Shown here: in pieces, positions 17,518 through 25,049 of the stretch
How the letters are laid out: each line of letters opens with the position of its first letter
Position numbering within the stretch: the first letter of the stretch is position 1
IMG/VR virus record: IMGVR_UViG_3300031963_000745
Location: 1 to 27,878 of that record
Source of the DNA: a virus
DNA: 27,878 bases
Strand: one strand, 5' to 3'
The notes under the pieces: model-generated
What the model was told of the DNA's origin: nothing
The model's database searches: none
Seen by the model: the letters and a program-made list of their open reading frames with translations, nothing else
Made by a program: the position numbers and the translations under genes

Positions 17518-18303
17518 CTATCCGCGGCGGACCGTGAATCCGGTACCGCGGGCACCGGCCGACGACTTGAACTGGCCCGCGAATGCCTTGGCGATCGAGC
17601 CGTTTGCCACGCAAAACTCCATGGCAGGCTTCATAAACGGGCGGGCTGGATAGGCGGCCACCGTCTGCAGCGACATGGGCCGCCAGTGAGTTTGATTGTG
17701 GGGACGCTGGCCCGTCGGCAGTTTCATGGTGATCGGCTGCCGCATCCCGCCGCGCTTTGTCTTGACCTGCGGAATATAGACCCACGTCCGCAGCCGCAGC
17801 ACGCCGCCAAACTCGTGGAGGTACGGGATCATGCGTCCCTTCTTCGACGGCCCGACGACCGCCGAATGGGTTTGCGAGTCGTAGTAGTTCCAGAGATTGC
17901 GGCGGAAGCCGAGGTAGCTGGCGAAGTGGCCGGCGTACGGCGTGTGCGTGTGCGGGGGCGTGCCTGGCGCCGAGGCCGGCGGCCTCTGAACCTCGCGAAT
18001 GATCCTGTTGCCGAGTTTCCGGTTTGCTCGAGGCGTGCTACCGAGGACTCCCATCTGCATCAGCGACGTGATGCCGGCACCCGGGAACTTTTCCTGCACC
18101 TTGAGCGGCAGCCTCGCGAGACCGCGCTTCTTGATGATCCGCTTTGCCCGATCCTTCACCAGCATCGACGCCTTCGACAACGCCTTCAGATCCATCGCCG
18201 ACATAGCCGCTTGGACGGCCGCCCGGTCGAAGAAGAAATCGACCGACGCCTTCATCCCGACAGACGGGATATTGGGCACCAGCCCGGGGATGCGTGGGAT
18301 CAT
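17518..18303 (-). CDS. HK97 gp10-like tail completion/neck protein
   Basis: A 261-residue basic protein. Its middle helix reads K-A-S-M-L-V-K-D-R-A-K-R-I-I-K-K-R, then come G-F-R-R-N-L-W-N-Y-Y and L-H-E-F-G-G, and the C-terminus has Y-P-A-R-P-F-M-K-P-A. The H-E-F-G-G and R-P-F-M-x-P-A pair with a preceding V-K-D-R-A helix is the HK97 gp10 (tail component) signature, though the protein is longer than the usual 120-150 residues. The inserted middle part is rich in Pro and His. The start overlaps the upstream stop (ATGA). Confidence 0.7.
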   Translation of the reverse strand: MIPRIPGLVPNIPSVGMKASVDFFFDRAAVQAAMSAMDLKALSKASMLVKDRAKRIIKKRGLARLPLKVQEKFPGAGITSLMQMGVLGSTPRANRKLGNRIIREVQRPPASAPGTPPHTHTPYAGHFASYLGFRRNLWNYYDSQTHSAVVGPSKKGRMIPYLHEFGGVLRLRTWVYIPQVKTKRGGMRQPITMKLPTGQRPHNQTHWRPMSLQTVAAYPARPFMKPAMEFCVANGSIAKAFAGQFKSSAGARGTGFTVRRG

Positions 18304-18761
18304 GGGAGTTTCGCGTTGGCGTATCGGTAGGTCACGACGATGTCGCCGAGGAACACACGCGAGCCCGTCACCTGGTCGCGGTCGTAGGTGACCGCGTTGG
18401 TGATCCCCATCCACGCCACGCCGGACGGCATGGGGGGGCTACTCGCGGGCAGTTTTTTGGACCGGATCGCGTCCACGATATTGGTCCGAAGATCCACCAG
18501 GTCGTCCAGTTCCGCGTCGGTCACGAGTTTTTTGCCGATCACAACGTGGATTTCGACCTCAAAAAGATCCGCACCATGCGTGTGGTTGGTGACCTCCACG
18601 CTGCCCGGCACCACCGAAACCTTGATGTCCGCGAGATCCTCTGTCGTGTAGTCGGCGACGTAGGTACGGACGGCATTTACATCACCGATTTCACCGTCAA
18701 ATGTGGCGGATGAAAGGCTTTCGGCCAGCGAGTCGGCGATGAGTATTTCGATAGCGTTCAT
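18300..18761 (-). CDS. probable tail terminator/minor tail protein, 153 aa
   Basis: A 153-residue alpha/beta protein starting M-N-A-I-E-I-L. It has strands I-K-V-S-V-V-P and F-E-V-E-I-H-V-V-I-G-K-K, a helix D-L-V-D-L-R-T-N-I-V-D-A-I, and a final I-V-V-T-Y-R-Y. That topology and position, between the neck module and the gp10-like gene, fit a tail terminator. ATG 18761 overlaps the glycosyltransferase stop (ATGA). The frame stays open upstream but there it only shadows the glycosyltransferase gene. Confidence 0.6.
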   Translation of the reverse strand: MNAIEILIADSLAESLSSATFDGEIGDVNAVRTYVADYTTEDLADIKVSVVPGSVEVTNHTHGADLFEVEIHVVIGKKLVTDAELDDLVDLRTNIVDAIRSKKLPASSPPMPSGVAWMGITNAVTYDRDQVTGSRVFLGDIVVTYRYANAKLP

Positions 18762-19810
18762 GGTTTCGGCCCGTCCTCTGATTTCATTCTGACAAGTGCT
18801 GCGACGTTGCCGGCGTGCCGGTGGTCTGCGGGATCTCGCTTGGCCGCCTCGCGGGCGTGCGTGATCGCCTCGTCGTGCAGCCCCAGCTCGTAGGCCGCCG
18901 AATACGCGATGTCGGCCGGGATCGCGCCGTAGGCCCACGGCTCGCTGGAATGCGTGCGGTTCTGGTCGCTGCACGCCAACGCACGACGAGCCCAGTAGAG
19001 GGCTCCCACCGCATCCTTCATGCCCCACGCCTTGCCGGCCAGCGACGCATACACCTCCGGCTCGTGCGGGCTATTCCAGACCGCGGCGAGGGCGTGGAGA
19101 TCGGCCCGTTCCGGTCGCAGCCGCGAAAGCCGGCGGCAGGCGTGGGCTCGCTCGTGCGGGCTGCCGCCCGCCATCTGCAGGTAGCGTTCGTAGGCCGCCG
19201 CCGCTTCCTCGTTGCCGTCGGTGTCCAGCTCACGGGCCAGATACCAGTGCATCCGGGCGTCGGCCGGATTCTCGCGGCACGCCTGGCGGAGTAGCGTCAG
19301 GTCGGACTTGTGGACCTTGCCAGGCTCACGGTGGTGGCGGATCACCAGGTCGTCGATCCGGACCACCTTCTCCTCGCCATCCCAGCACACCAGCCCCTCG
19401 TGGGTCGCACCCTGCCAGCGGTGGCCGTGCCGGGCGTGGACGCGATCGCCGTAGAACCGCACGTCGGCGGACCAGTGGTACGGGTAGTGCAGCCGGGTGG
19501 TGCCGTCCACCCACGCCCGCTCCAGGGCTTCCCGCCAGCCAGGATCGAATGCCTCGTCGAGGTCCAGCCGGATCGCCACGTCCACGTCGGCAGGGACGTG
19601 CATCAGCGAGAGGTTGTGGGCGTCGTCCCACCTCCACGGGATCGGGGCGCCGCGGGCCACCAGCACGCCGGCCGCCTCGAGCAGTGCCACGGTGTCGTCG
19701 GTGCTGCCGGTGTCGGTGACCACCCGCACGTCGGCGTCTCGGCACGACTCCTCCCACCGGGCCACGTTGGCCGATTCGTTTTTGGCGAGGGCGTAGATGG
19801 CGATCTTCAC
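18758..19810 (-). CDS. family 2 glycosyltransferase with C-terminal TPR region
   Basis: This 350-residue protein begins with a GT-A family 2 domain: I-A-I-Y-A-L-A-K-N-E, then D33-T-G-S-T-D-D-T, and L-D-L-D85-E-A-F as the metal-binding DxD-type site. From about residue 171 it has TPR-like helices (A-R-M-H-W-Y-L-A-R-E-L, A-Y-S-A-A-Y-E-L-G-L, A-I-T-H-A-R-E-A-A). Such GT2-TPR enzymes transfer a sugar from a nucleotide sugar. GTG 19810 overlaps the methyltransferase stop. A virion protein or surface glycan is the likely acceptor, by context. Confidence 0.8.
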   Translation of the reverse strand: MKIAIYALAKNESANVARWEESCRDADVRVVTDTGSTDDTVALLEAAGVLVARGAPIPWRWDDAHNLSLMHVPADVDVAIRLDLDEAFDPGWREALERAWVDGTTRLHYPYHWSADVRFYGDRVHARHGHRWQGATHEGLVCWDGEEKVVRIDDLVIRHHREPGKVHKSDLTLLRQACRENPADARMHWYLARELDTDGNEEAAAAYERYLQMAGGSPHERAHACRRLSRLRPERADLHALAAVWNSPHEPEVYASLAGKAWGMKDAVGALYWARRALACSDQNRTHSSEPWAYGAIPADIAYSAAYELGLHDEAITHAREAAKRDPADHRHAGNVAALVRMKSEDGPKP

Positions 19811-20364
19811 GCAATCACCCCCGCGATCCGCAGGCCGTCGTTGATGAACTCCACCGTCCGGTTTTGCTCCAGGGCGAACTGGTCCACGGCCCGACGCACC
19901 TCGCGGTTGTCGCAGTCGTCAGCAAGGATCGCCCGGCAGCCGGCCACCAGCCGTAGATCGGCCAACGCCCCGGCATACGAATGGTCGCCGTCCACATGGG
20001 CGAAGTCTGCCGGCGGCAGCGACTTGATCGCGTGGGAATCAACGATCACCAAGTCGGCGTCGATCGCGTGCTTTTCGATCATCCGTTTCGCGTGGGCAAG
20101 GCAGTCGTAGCTGTCGTGATCCATGGCACCGTCGATGCACAGGAACCTGGCCTGCGGTGCCACCGACTGAAACGTGATGAGCGAGTAGCCGCAGCGGGTT
20201 CCGATTTCGATGATCCGCCGCGGTGCGTAGCGGCGGCAGATCGCCGCCTTCATCGCGTAGTGGAAAATGACTCGCGTATCGCATCCGAACCAGTCGTCGT
20301 CGCGCCAGTTGGCCTCGAGCAGCTTCCGCGTGGCGTCGGCGATCGGTACGTCTACGCTGGTCAT
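19807..20364 (-). CDS. class I SAM-dependent methyltransferase
   Basis: A 185-residue Rossmann-fold methyltransferase of the Methyltransf_24 kind. Motif I is I-I-E53-I-G55-T-R-C-G, an acidic ribose contact is C-I-D78-G, and H-V-D-G-D-H-S-Y (123-130) is the family's later motif. The N-terminal helix is charged. It overlaps the genes on both sides by ATGA or GTGA, tying it to the glycosyltransferase and the GH130-like gene. Sugar O-methylation is a reasonable guess; the substrate is not shown. Confidence 0.75.
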   Translation of the reverse strand: MTSVDVPIADATRKLLEANWRDDDWFGCDTRVIFHYAMKAAICRRYAPRRIIEIGTRCGYSLITFQSVAPQARFLCIDGAMDHDSYDCLAHAKRMIEKHAIDADLVIVDSHAIKSLPPADFAHVDGDHSYAGALADLRLVAGCRAILADDCDNREVRRAVDQFALEQNRTVEFINDGLRIAGVIA

Positions 20365-21389
20365 GGGGCACCCATGAGGCCGAGAACATCACACAGTGCC
20401 AGATCAGCCATCCACGCCTCCGCGTCGCGGACGCCGAACGTCACTAGCACGCGGCCGTCGTCCACGGCCAGCCCGGCCGCAAACTCGATCGCCTGCGTTT
20501 CGCGAAACGCGAACGGCGGCGACACGGCACGGATCGACCACTCCGCCTCGTCGAACATCACGAACCGGTGTTCGTAGACTCGCTTGCCGGCAACCTCGGC
20601 CACCTCGTGGATTGCCGCCAGCCAGTCGCCGCCGCCGATCGGCACCACCTGGGTTCCGCCGCGGAAGGCCCGGGCCACCGGCGGCGAAGCCGCGTGGGCG
20701 GACACGGTCCAGTCGTCGCCGGAGTCCTCGACCAGGCAGACGTAGCCGCGGGAGTGACAGGAATACAACCACTCCCTCCGCCCCAGGATCGGCATCCAGT
20801 TTTTCTCGTGCAGCCCCGGGGGCGTGTTGTGGCAGCGGAGGTCGTGGATCCAGCCGTCCACGATCTCGCCATACGCCATCCGGCAGGTGCCGTCGTAGCC
20901 GTCGTAGTTGCGGACCGTGGCCGACGCGACGATCCGGCCGTCGATGACGTTGAGCCGAATGTCCTCCAAGCCGTCCACGGGGAAGGCGGACCGTGGGTAG
21001 GTGCAGTAGACCGGCGTGGCCACGACGCCGTCGTAGAGCACGTTCCGCGTCTTGATGACCTCGCCGTCCTCCGGCGGAATCACATACCGGCCGTTTTCGT
21101 CGATCCGGTAGTTGCTGGAGCGGACGTTGTAGAGCGGGACGCCGTCGTGGATCACGACCGATGGGTTGAACCGCGACCAGCCGGCGTAGACGCCTGGCTC
21201 GAGCCGCGAAAACTTCACCTCGGCGAGATCGTCCAGCCGCTGGGTGTACCAGGTGCGGTTCGCCCGGACCTTGGTTTCCTTCTCCGGCGACAGGTCCAGC
21301 CGCAGCAACCGTTCGCACGCCCGCCGGCCGGCGTCGTGCTCGGCGCAGTAGTAGGCGTGGGCGGCGATTCGGTGCAGGTGTTCAATCAT
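20361..21389 (-). CDS. GH130-like five-bladed beta-propeller protein
   Basis: About 342 residues from ATG 21389; GTG 21398 and an earlier start are alternatives, and Shine-Dalgarno sites are weak. The N-terminal ~35 residues are helical and TPR-like. The rest has propeller blade patterns such as F-N-P-S-V-V-I-H, E-D-I-R-L, E-K-N-W-M-P, R-G-G-T-Q-V-V-P, Y-E-H-R-F-V and F-A-A-G-L-A. Their order resembles GH130 mannoside phosphorylases or related glycan-processing enzymes. The catalytic residue is not confirmed. It precedes the methyltransferase and glycosyltransferase in one coupled unit. Confidence 0.65.
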   Translation of the reverse strand: MIEHLHRIAAHAYYCAEHDAGRRACERLLRLDLSPEKETKVRANRTWYTQRLDDLAEVKFSRLEPGVYAGWSRFNPSVVIHDGVPLYNVRSSNYRIDENGRYVIPPEDGEVIKTRNVLYDGVVATPVYCTYPRSAFPVDGLEDIRLNVIDGRIVASATVRNYDGYDGTCRMAYGEIVDGWIHDLRCHNTPPGLHEKNWMPILGRREWLYSCHSRGYVCLVEDSGDDWTVSAHAASPPVARAFRGGTQVVPIGGGDWLAAIHEVAEVAGKRVYEHRFVMFDEAEWSIRAVSPPFAFRETQAIEFAAGLAVDDGRVLVTFGVRDAEAWMADLALCDVLGLMGAP

Positions 21390-21456: not shown

Positions 21457-21771
21457 TTATTCGGGGGGCGACTGTTCCGGCACCGCAAACTCCAGATCGG
21501 CCAGCGGCACCACCTCCACGCTCGCCATCATCTCCTGCGTGATGTACGAGAACGCCTGCGACAGGATGCCGCCGTCGCCCACCTCGCTGAGAACGTCGCC
21601 GCACATGGCCCATCGGCCGTCAGTTAGTTGTCGCCCGACCGGAACGTGTCGCGGATCGCCATGCTCCTCCTGCACGCCGTACAGCGCGACGGCGATCTCG
21701 TAGGGGTAGACCAACGCAAGGTCTTTGCAGTCGGCGTAAGGCATCGGGAGAGTGAGTTCGGAGAGCGTCAT
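21457..21771 (-). CDS. small unknown protein, 104 aa
   Basis: This 104-residue protein was not recognised. It is acidic, with an N-terminal beta-rich part (L-V-Y-P-Y-E-I-A-V-A-L-Y-G-V), then G-R-W-A-M-C-G-D, and a helix (I-L-S-Q-A-F-S-Y-I-T-Q-E-M-M). ATG 21771 overlaps the LamG gene stop (ATGA) and has AGGA upstream. It could be an assembly helper of the adhesin gene it follows, by position only. A 67-nt gap follows to the GH130-like gene. Confidence 0.55.
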   Translation of the reverse strand: MTLSELTLPMPYADCKDLALVYPYEIAVALYGVQEEHGDPRHVPVGRQLTDGRWAMCGDVLSEVGDGGILSQAFSYITQEMMASVEVVPLADLEFAVPEQSPPE

Positions 21772-24134
21772 GCCGTTCGTCCTAAGGCCGTGTTGAAAGC
21801 GGACAGAGCAGCGTGAAAACTAGCGACCTGCTGCTGCGTCATGTCATCGCCAATGCTATACATTCGCATCGCGTAGACTCCTGGATCACCAAAGTCCGTC
21901 CCCGAAAGGTTTGTGCGAAACACATAAAAAGGCAGGTTGCTGGACGCTATGCCTGTGACAGAAGTGGACAGAACCCCATCACTCACTGCGTTTCTGTATA
22001 GGACTAGGTTCGTCGCAGACGTTCTAGTTGCAAGGAGAAATGCACTCGGCCGCGACCCCTGGATGGTGGTTGTGCTTGATAATGCGTTAGCCTTCCCAAG
22101 CCTCGCTTGATCTGACAACGCTGATGATGTTGAGACGCCAATGCTGATTGACCATCTATCTGTTGTTCCGTTGTAGACGCCAAGCAACTGCGGACTTGAA
22201 ACAGTTGATTGTGTCGGGCCGTGCCACGCCGATAAGTGCATAGACTCGTAAACACTTGCAGGCATCGCATCTGTAGCCAGCCCCGTGTTCAAGTACTTTG
22301 TGCTGGCAAGGCTTTGCAGGCCAGCGCCTTCTGAGTAGTCGCCACTGACAAACGGCCCGACGTTGGTGTCGGTGGTGTTGCCATACTGCGTTCCGCCAAG
22401 CGACGGGCCGCGATACAGCGGGACGAGGCAGGCGTTGAGGCCGGTGCCGCAGAAGAGGTTGAGCCGATAGAACCGATCCCGCAGCGATGCCGCATCCAGT
22501 GAGTCGCACAGCGTGTTCACCGCGCTCGCCGTACTGGCACTCACCGACCCGCCGTTGGCATAGACGCGGTTGATCCAGTCTTGCGCGTCGGCGTTGGAGA
22601 CTTGCGGGGCGAGGGTGATGCCCCAGCGGTTTGCCAAGTAGACCTCAAGGCGACGGCGCTCTGAGGACGAAACAGCCCGCGAGTAGACAAGCAGTTCCGC
22701 TATGTTGCTTGCAAACGGAGTGACGACTGACGTTCTTCGCAGCGCTCCGATGTTTGCGGTTGTCAGAGAAAGAGTGCCGCAGTCCAAGGATGCGTTCTTT
22801 GCTACATCTGCTCCGTTAAGCGACAGCGTTGTGGATTGGCCCGCGAACGTCATTGACGCCACGGCCCAAGATGTAAGGGACGCTCCGCTCGCAGTTGCAG
22901 AGACGAGGGATGAGGCATCGTCTCGCCGCCTCGCGCCAATGGCATCGTTCACCGTCTTTTCCAGCACAAAAAACGGGGCATCTGTCGAAGAGTTGCCGAA
23001 TCCAAGAATGGTCGCAGTAGACGCAGATGGGGATGCCAGACAGACTGCGATGGCGGTCATGGGAACGTCTGACCCAGTAACCACAGACGAAAGGGAGTCT
23101 GCTGAAAGCGTTTGGCTTGAGGCCGAAGCAAACTGCGCTACCCTCCTGTTGTTCCTTAGTGTCGCACTGATCGTCGGCCTGCTCGCCGCCGTACTCTGCG
23201 TGGCGTGCCTCGCGTTGCCAGACTTGTCAGCCCAGTACCCCACCGGATCGCTGGAGGCGGTGGCCTGTGCGTGGACGCCAGAGATGCCCCATCGCTGGGC
23301 TAAGTAGGCTTCGACGCGGGCGCGGTCTGCGGTGGAGAGGGCGGTGTTGAAGTGGATAATCTCTGCGATGTACCCGTTGAGGTACTCGGAGGAAGCGCGA
23401 GCCCCGATGGTCACGGCTTGGTTGAGGCTATGGTCCGCAGACTGCCCAGACGCGGCGACGGCCGTTACGCCGTCAAGGTATCCGGCAGCCGATGTCGAAG
23501 AAGTGACCGAGTAGACCCTCGCCTGGGTTGTTGGGTTTGCGGTGGAGGTCAGCACTTGGGCCGACCCGGCGTTCTTTTGGAGCATCCAAATCTGCGGATC
23601 AGAGCGAACGACAAAACCAAACCCAAGAGTGCCAGCAGTCGCACTGAGTTTTGTGTAGACGCCCTTGTTTGCGGCAGACGCCTGCCGAAAAACAATGAAG
23701 TAAGTCAGGTCGCTTGAGTTGAAAGCAGAGTTGGCCGCAACGGTCATCGCGTTCGCGGAGCCGTCGAACGTCATCACGCTCCTGCCGTTCAGACCCCCAG
23801 CCGTCAGCGTTGGCCTCGCGCTTCCGCTTGCGGTCGCGTGGTTGTTCTGACCGCTCTTGTCGTTCCACTGGCTGACCAGCCCGCCAGATTGCGTGATGCT
23901 CGCCGAATCGCTCGCATCCCACCACCCCACGCACCCCGCAATCTCCGTAGGTGAACTCACCGCCGTCACCGGACCAGCGTCGGTGGTGTAAAGCGTGTCG
24001 GCCGAAGAAGCGTCAAGCCAGAGGGCGAGGCCGCTGATTTCGGCTGGCGAAAAGTCTTCAGCGACTTTCCTCCGAACCACCGCCACCGGCAGGCTCGTCC
24101 GCACACCTCTCCTGGGCCACGCTCCACGAGCCAT
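21768..24134 (-). CDS. large LamG-domain adhesin/virion protein, 788 aa
   Basis: This 788-residue protein carries concanavalin-like LamG domains. A complete one (about 62-284) begins E-I-A-G and contains W-W-D-A-S, the W-N-D-K-S-G-Q-N-N-H-A-T motif and the R-W-G-I end. A second one is split: its start (31-61, E-I-S-G-L-A-L-W-L-D-A-S) is cut by the first, and its rest resumes near 296 (Y-W-A-D-K-S-G-N-A-R-H-A-T) and ends at 505 (N-R-W-G-I). The last ~275 residues are a third beta-rich region starting D-W-I-N-R-V-Y. AGGAG precedes ATG 24134. LamG domains bind glycans, so host attachment is likely. DNA is slightly AT-richer than average here. Confidence 0.75.
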   Translation of the reverse strand: MARGAWPRRGVRTSLPVAVVRRKVAEDFSPAEISGLALWLDASSADTLYTTDAGPVTAVSSPTEIAGCVGWWDASDSASITQSGGLVSQWNDKSGQNNHATASGSARPTLTAGGLNGRSVMTFDGSANAMTVAANSAFNSSDLTYFIVFRQASAANKGVYTKLSATAGTLGFGFVVRSDPQIWMLQKNAGSAQVLTSTANPTTQARVYSVTSSTSAAGYLDGVTAVAASGQSADHSLNQAVTIGARASSEYLNGYIAEIIHFNTALSTADRARVEAYLAQRWGISGVHAQATASSDPVGYWADKSGNARHATQSTAASRPTISATLRNNRRVAQFASASSQTLSADSLSSVVTGSDVPMTAIAVCLASPSASTATILGFGNSSTDAPFFVLEKTVNDAIGARRRDDASSLVSATASGASLTSWAVASMTFAGQSTTLSLNGADVAKNASLDCGTLSLTTANIGALRRTSVVTPFASNIAELLVYSRAVSSSERRRLEVYLANRWGITLAPQVSNADAQDWINRVYANGGSVSASTASAVNTLCDSLDAASLRDRFYRLNLFCGTGLNACLVPLYRGPSLGGTQYGNTTDTNVGPFVSGDYSEGAGLQSLASTKYLNTGLATDAMPASVYESMHLSAWHGPTQSTVSSPQLLGVYNGTTDRWSISIGVSTSSALSDQARLGKANALSSTTTIQGSRPSAFLLATRTSATNLVLYRNAVSDGVLSTSVTGIASSNLPFYVFRTNLSGTDFGDPGVYAMRMYSIGDDMTQQQVASFHAALSAFNTALGRTA

Positions 24135-24164: not shown

Positions 24165-25049
24165 TCACGTCACCGTCACCGGGGCCGATAGTGGGCCGTC
24201 GCCCACGGCGTTGACCGCACGCACTCGCATGACAGAACCGGCCAAGTAAAAGTCGATGCTCTGCGTGGCCCACTCGTCGCCTGGGCTAAACGGCTCAACT
24301 TGGACGCCGTCTCTGTAGAGCTTGTATGAAGTCAACGGAGATCCGCCGTTACTCGGCGTAGTCCACTCGATGAACACATCGTCACCGACAGTGGTGATCG
24401 TCGGCGCGCCAGGCACAGTCGCAGCCACCGTTGCTGGTGTTGACTTCGCACCCTCGCCCACCACGTTGACCGCCGACACACGCACCACCGCCCCTGCGGC
24501 ATAGGTGCCCACACTGGTGGTCGCGGGAGCCGCGATGGTCTCCTGGAGCACGTTGTTGACGTAGACGCGGTAGGAGGTCACGGGATAGCCGCCGGTCGCC
24601 GTCGGTGCCGTCCAGGTCACTGGGCTGCCCTGCGTGCCGGCCACCCCGGTCGGGGCACCAGGGGCCGTTGGCCTGCGGTCGGCAGCCGACTGCACCACTT
24701 GGGTGTGGATTCTGCGGAGATTCTGGTTTCGGTCCGACCAGCGCCAGTGGTGCTCGGCACCGCTGGGAGCGCTGACCTCGTAGAGCACCTCGCTGCCGTA
24801 CTCTGTCGCAGCTATGCGGTCGCCCTTCCTTGGATCCTGGGCCAGCTCGCTTCGGTGAACGAACCAGTCGCGGGTTTCGCTTCGGATCATCTGTCCGGCC
24901 GCATCGACCGTCTCCCACCTGCCAACCACCACCGTGGCCTTCACCGTGCGAGCGGGGCCGACCACGGGCCGGTACTCGACCTGCACGGCGAGATGCTCGC
25001 GCCGCTGCTGTTCAAACCACGTCTCGCCGATGGCGATCATGTCCTGCAC
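24165..25049 (-). CDS. neck/head-closure protein with two C-terminal Fn3 domains
   Basis: This 294-residue protein starts at GTG 25049 with GAGGT 7 nt upstream. The N-terminal ~125 residues look like a head-tail joining (stopper) domain, with W-F-E-Q-Q-R-R-E-H-L, G-D-R-I, Y-E-V and W-R-W-S-D-R-N followed by R-I-H-T. Two Fn3 domains follow (about 132-215 and 217-294). Both show the P-x-A-P-T or P-G-A-P-T start, the T-S-Y-R-V-Y or T-S-Y-K-L-Y strand, and V-R-V-S-A-V-N or V-R-V-R-A-V-N-A-V-G. Fn3 domains are commonly exposed on virions and bind carbohydrates. The neck role is inferred from gene order. Confidence 0.7.
   Translation of the reverse strand: MQDMIAIGETWFEQQRREHLAVQVEYRPVVGPARTVKATVVVGRWETVDAAGQMIRSETRDWFVHRSELAQDPRKGDRIAATEYGSEVLYEVSAPSGAEHHWRWSDRNQNLRRIHTQVVQSAADRRPTAPGAPTGVAGTQGSPVTWTAPTATGGYPVTSYRVYVNNVLQETIAAPATTSVGTYAAGAVVRVSAVNVVGEGAKSTPATVAATVPGAPTITTVGDDVFIEWTTPSNGGSPLTSYKLYRDGVQVEPFSPGDEWATQSIDFYLAGSVMRVRAVNAVGDGPLSAPVTVT

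Follow-up and report, generated by a model that had tools for sequence, protein, structure and literature searches.

The 27,878-base virus record IMGVR_UViG_3300031963_000745 (the window, meaning here the whole stretch of DNA analysed) comes from a tailed phage represented solely in metagenomes and carries within its structural genes a cassette of three genes. These encode a GH130-fold propeller (PROP), an S-adenosylmethionine (SAM) methyltransferase (MT) and a GT2-TPR glycosyltransferase (GT). All structural genes lie on the minus strand, in the order portal-end fragment, protease/major capsid, cement, head-tail joining protein with an Fn3 domain, 788-residue appendage protein and 104-residue protein; the last of these is followed by PROP, MT, GT and then the tail genes up to the tape measure (Table 1). 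The genes of the cassette overlap by 4 bp: ATGA at the PROP/MT junction, GTGA at MT/GT, where the GTG start of GT overlaps the stop of MT, and ATGA between GT and the next tail gene. These −4 overlaps are kept in most relatives. The original prediction, made from the sequence, had placed three translationally coupled genes at 21389-18758 between the LamG/neck genes and the tail terminator; the genes are real and both their coordinates and their position stand. The start of PROP at 21389 is backed by a conserved MIEHLH-like N-terminus in 37 homologues. Promoter-like sites across the cassette region do not exceed chance level, which is consistent with a single transcript. A near-identity search of the cassette region against phage records gave no match, and PADLOC gave no defence-system match.

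Table 1. Features of the cassette and its flanks in the window
Feature	Coordinates	Strand	Description
PROP	20361..21389	(-)	342 aa; GH130-fold five-bladed-type propeller, short helical N-terminus
MT	19807..20364	(-)	185 aa; class I SAM methyltransferase
GT	18758..19810	(-)	350 aa; GT2-type glycosyltransferase with C-terminal TPR-like helices; GTG start
LamG-type virion appendage protein	21768..24134	(-)	788 aa; PHROG 10356 match; candidate acceptor
104-aa protein between appendage gene and PROP	21457..21771	(-)	found in many relatives
Head-tail joining protein with Fn3 domain	24165..25049	(-)	Phage_H_T_join_3 5.7e-24, fn3 1.6e-8 (Pfam)
First tail-module gene, coupled to GT	18300..18761	(-)	tail terminator by size and position only

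The three genes travel together. IMG/VR scans yielded 142 to 341 relatives for PROP, 263 for GT and 175 for MT, from which the best 80 of each were retained; the linkage counts refer to the nearer relatives and to loci with enough flank. PROP and GT were found together in all 59 such loci, 51 of which also contain MT, so the recurrence in related phages that had been proposed as a check is indeed seen. Anchoring the search on GT recovered PROP in 39/39 loci, and anchoring on MT recovered all three genes in 38/38. Pairwise identities of PROP, MT and GT correlate with one another at 0.79-0.84, compared with 0.42-0.79 against the tested tail genes and −0.29 to 0.60 against head genes. Chance or mis-assembly as the source of the trio was rejected because numerous contigs from different samples share this gene order. 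The cassettes of some relatives contain additional or replacement genes, namely FkbM methyltransferases, further GT2s or another methyltransferase. Glycan-tailoring loci vary through extra and substitute genes of this kind. Comparison of relatives L006 and L128, and of L018 and L019, showed cassettes that stay close to that of the window, with adjoining tail genes whose similarity is high for one relative and low for another; the sequences suggest recombination near the cassette edges. In a near-identical contig (L003:1799-2531) the MT/GT junction is duplicated or disrupted, with MT present twice and GT in two pieces, perhaps through an assembly fault.

The AlphaFold2 (AF2) model of PROP has a pLDDT of 93.6. 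When it was compared with the PDB using Foldseek, the top matches were GH130 phosphorylases and putative glycosidases of the GH130 fold (E 1.7e-11, probability 1.00). The TM-score of about 0.55 and identity of 13-16% make PROP a distant GH130 relative. Only fold comparison located this relationship, as single-sequence and profile searches of PROP against PDB sequences found no match. The window PROP has no Pfam match; weak GH130 Pfam matches occur in 7/37 of its homologues, and a distant bacterial (Ignavibacterial) member of the family scores above the GH130 cut-off. Residues E142, D143, R145, K196, H261 and D322 are invariant across the 37 homologues from phages and nearly invariant across 44 from bacteria. 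In a weak profile alignment, the ED-x-R motif, K196, H261 and D322 align to GH130 active-site motifs. For the GH130 enzyme BT3780, Glu141, Asp142 and Asp363 have been reported to be required for activity (PMC4599007). PROP thus shares the propeller fold with Uhgb_MP, Uhgb_MS, Teth514_1788 and BT3780 and appears to keep ED-x-R and other active-site motifs. The ‘GH130-like’ label first given to this protein is therefore justified by fold and by invariant catalytic residues, even though the window protein is without a Pfam match. PROP is probably a beta-glycoside transferase or a phosphorylase-type enzyme. The genomic setting differs: GH130 enzymes sit in mannan-degradation loci, whereas PROP is coupled or fused to glycosyltransferases.

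GT matches PHROG 13126 (1.2e-67), which bears the name beta-1,4-glycosyltransferase; Pfam GT2 and TPR models match it at sub-threshold level only. Its AF2 model (pLDDT 91.3) has a GT2 fold followed by TPR-like helices, as judged by secondary structure and Foldseek, and the DxD motif (D83/D85) is invariant. The architecture originally assigned to GT is thereby borne out. The best solved matches are SunS and ThuS (E about 1e-15). These are GT2 S-glycosyltransferases of glycocins, which act on a peptide acceptor. They are the closest solved folds to GT, from which they differ in that identity is only 15-17%; phmmer did not find either of them, and a profile search found ThuS (7msk) weakly (E 0.027). 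The modelled fold, together with the collagen-like neighbours described below, suggests a polypeptide acceptor for GT, and the same neighbours suggest O-glycosylation of Thr or Ser rather than SunS/ThuS-type S-glycosylation of Cys. A tblastn search of GT against mycobacteriophage records gave no match at E 1e-3.

The assignment of MT as a SAM methyltransferase agrees with its Methyltransf_24 match, which is above the Pfam cut-off (3.5e-8). It also resembles rhamnosyl O-methyltransferases weakly, below the cut-off, and contains the conserved motifs EIGTRCGYS and HVDGDHS. Searching MT against phage records produced no match at E 1e-3.

Between the neck gene and PROP, gene content changes from relative to relative while the cassette stays. 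In the window this interval holds the 788-residue appendage protein, which matches a PHROG 10356 virion structural protein (6e-45) and consists of 23.7% Ser and Thr, a share exceeded by just one of the other window proteins in the 20 measured. Its description as a LamG protein is less secure than first put: Pfam makes no such call in the window protein, although an appendage protein encoded in the corresponding interval of a relative has Laminin_G_3. That relative's protein combines collagen, Fn3 and Laminin_G_3 domains, which connects the window's LamG-type appendage with collagen-bearing ones. Collagen-like open reading frames (ORFs) are present in 11/42 phage loci, always in the appendage interval upstream of PROP and nowhere else in these loci. 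By ORF the contrast is 18/138 in the interval against 0/430 elsewhere (p = 3.6e-12), a value to be read with the non-independence of ORFs from related loci in mind. Beyond these loci, Synechococcus phage DSL-LC02 has a PROP homologue together with two FkbM methyltransferases, flanked by collagen-like and tail-fibre genes, and in Actinomycetia phage DSL-LC01 a GT homologue adjoins collagen genes, as checked with Pfam. The original prediction had set linkage of the trio to this adhesin against a trio scattered in relatives. The trio is not scattered and stays in the appendage interval; its persistence while the appendage genes change means that the linkage is to the appendage locus and not to this one adhesin.

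Bacterial relatives, collected as 46 loci in bacterial genomes, are the strongest independent clue. The propeller and GT2-TPR are fused in one polypeptide in 25/26 bacterial ORFs tested. One Mesorhizobium ORF adds a DXD sugar transferase to this fusion, and its C-terminus reads as methyltransferase-like by inspection, where Pfam makes no call. A collagen-like run is present in 25/46 loci, and in 24 of the 32 loci measured its distance to the PROP gene is 0.05 to 5 kb. In alphaproteobacterial loci the third residue of the triplet is Thr in 79-100% of cases, and in rhizobia the repeat is nearly pure Gly-X-Thr. In genomes with >20 (GXT)5 matches, the PROP locus makes up about 0.2% of the genome and holds about 43% of the matches. 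The association is also found in Ignavibacteria and in two Acidimicrobiia loci, with Thr at 50-60%. Very long Gly-X-Thr genes stand beside the fused GT2-TPR-propeller gene in rhizobia (L112:1416-5477 (-); L091, L106, L114, L126 and others); in L112 a DUF4347 domain precedes the collagen region. The PROP fold is also seen in pithovirus-like and other giant-virus proteins (BFVD A0A481Z9G3, A0A3G5AFP7, A0A1V0SDN7 and A0A3G5AG18; TM-score up to 0.86), and several longer giant-virus proteins with this fold carry fucosyltransferase, LicD/fukutin-type or pyruvyl transferase annotations. Among the genome contigs scanned there was no bacterial relative above 41% identity; thus no prophage of the clade was seen and a host is not assignable. 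PROP relatives also occur on three contigs titled as a Bifidobacterium breve metagenome-assembled genome (L092, L108 and L121). These titles are doubtful given the lake-type sample names, and the contigs may be mislabelled bins.

Since relatives in other phages and in bacteria lie repeatedly beside collagen-like genes, the trio probably decorates surface appendages. We consider it likely that the cassette serves cytoplasmic glycosylation of the phage's own virion appendage proteins with a methylated glycan, the first of two functions originally put forward; synteny, fold, gene fusion and neighbourhood all support it. In such a scheme, GT would bind the acceptor polypeptide and transfer a sugar from a nucleotide sugar to Ser or Thr. 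Working in the synthetic direction, PROP would then add or rework a beta-mannoside-type sugar, and MT would cap the glycan by O-methylation. All steps would take place in the host cytoplasm, the decorated appendages then being assembled at the neck or tail. We infer from the gene neighbourhoods and folds that the acceptor is a protein and specifically an appendage, for which the 788-residue LamG-type protein would be the most likely candidate in the window phage; the sugars, the order of steps and the placing of the methyl group on sugar are likewise our reading of the gene set. Several observations weigh against this proposal. The window phage has no Gly-X-Y repeat, so the acceptor link is indirect there, and 31/42 phage loci contain no collagen-like run of at least 6 triplets. 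In Pseudomonas jumbo phages the GT homologues have DNA ligase and head genes nearby instead of fibre genes. Many of the bacterial loci are from Mesorhizobium and are mutually related rather than independent, and several actinobacterial loci have no collagen-like gene. GH130 enzymes are, moreover, mostly known as degradative phosphorylases or hydrolases.

The second function originally proposed, modification of the host surface, would have the enzymes add, trim or methylate sugars on envelope glycans, blocking superinfection or aiding release of progeny. GT2 enzymes and methyltransferases also work in lipopolysaccharide and capsule synthesis, the name of PHROG 13126 (beta-1,4-glycosyltransferase) would suit such a role, and phage glycosyltransferases are reported to alter host surface antigens during lysogeny (PMC12619734). 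We nevertheless find this function unlikely and favour it less than a virion glycan: the cassette sits in the structural module with coupling to a tail gene, flippase-like partners do not recur in the cassettes of relatives, the GT fold points to polypeptide acceptors and the bacterial relatives adjoin collagen-like proteins.

Were the virion the target, the glycan could instead be placed on the capsid or tail tube, the neighbouring fibres being incidental. Capsid and tail tube are the sites of mycobacteriophage glycans according to work cited in PMC12619734 and PMC12363180, and the jumbo-phage GT homologue lies near head genes. This placement seems improbable, as collagen-like and appendage genes lie close by time and again, both in unrelated phages and in bacteria, which have no virion. 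Hypermodification of phage DNA by GT and MT is harder still to credit. Virus-encoded glycosyltransferases do modify DNA in other phages (PMC12619734), and in relative L079 a GT2 between PROP and GT has a sub-threshold match to a TET-associated glycosyltransferase (E 0.006). No base-hydroxylation or thymidylate-type gene was found among the window proteins scanned, in a record that may be incomplete, and here too the GT fold and the bacterial context point elsewhere.

Around the cassette, the 104-residue protein and the 152-residue frame at 18300..18761 are without a family match in Pfam or PHROG. The latter had been called the tail terminator; its position and size fit, and family support for that name is absent from both databases. 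Two overlapping frames precede the tape measure gene (16638-15947 (-)), an order kept in relatives and one expected of a frameshifted tail assembly chaperone pair. A 394-residue protein (7270-6086 (-)) has no Pfam match and contains a GSCVSFG stretch which by eye resembles a papain-type cysteine protease site.

Glycosylation of the virion as preferred above has precedents. The mycobacteriophages Che8, Corndog and Myrna are described as glycosylating their virions with phage glycosyltransferases (Freeman et al. 2023, as cited in PMC12363180 and PMC12619734). Phage-encoded glycosyltransferases are proposed there to decorate the phage's own virion proteins, as here; they differ in that capsid and tail tube are modified, whereas the present set includes a GH130-fold propeller and a methyltransferase. 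A phage-encoded glycosyltransferase linked to virion genes is what we find in the window and its relatives. In mimivirus, viral enzymes glycosylate the virus's own collagen-like proteins (L230) and the glycans contain methylated sugars (PMC4691112, PMC9614988). The likeness is in virus-encoded glycosylation of collagen-like proteins and in sugar methylation; L230 differs in transferring glucose onto hydroxylysine and in its domain set. BclA of the Bacillus spore exosporium is a collagen-like repeat protein with O-linked oligosaccharides. Searching an open-access library, we found no account of the set of propeller, GT and methyltransferase or of its collagen-like link, nothing relevant on GT108/GH130 with viruses or on Mesorhizobium collagen-like proteins with glycosyltransferases, and no description of modification of rhizobial Gly-X-Thr collagen-like proteins.

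A wider generalisation is quite possible, if a little short of probable: PROP and GT2-TPR may form the core of an as yet undescribed system that O-glycosylates appendage and collagen-like (Gly-X-Thr) proteins in the cytoplasm, with a phosphorylase-fold enzyme turned from breaking protein-linked glycans to building them. Tailed phages and several phyla of bacteria would share such a system, as would giant viruses to judge by fold. If our interpretation of the cassette is correct, virion glycosylation, known from few mycobacteriophages, would extend to uncultivated phages of many metagenomes, through a different, modular enzyme set whose candidate acceptors form a clear class. A functional handle would also be gained on the propeller family and on the long, collagen-like Gly-X-Thr proteins that rhizobia encode.
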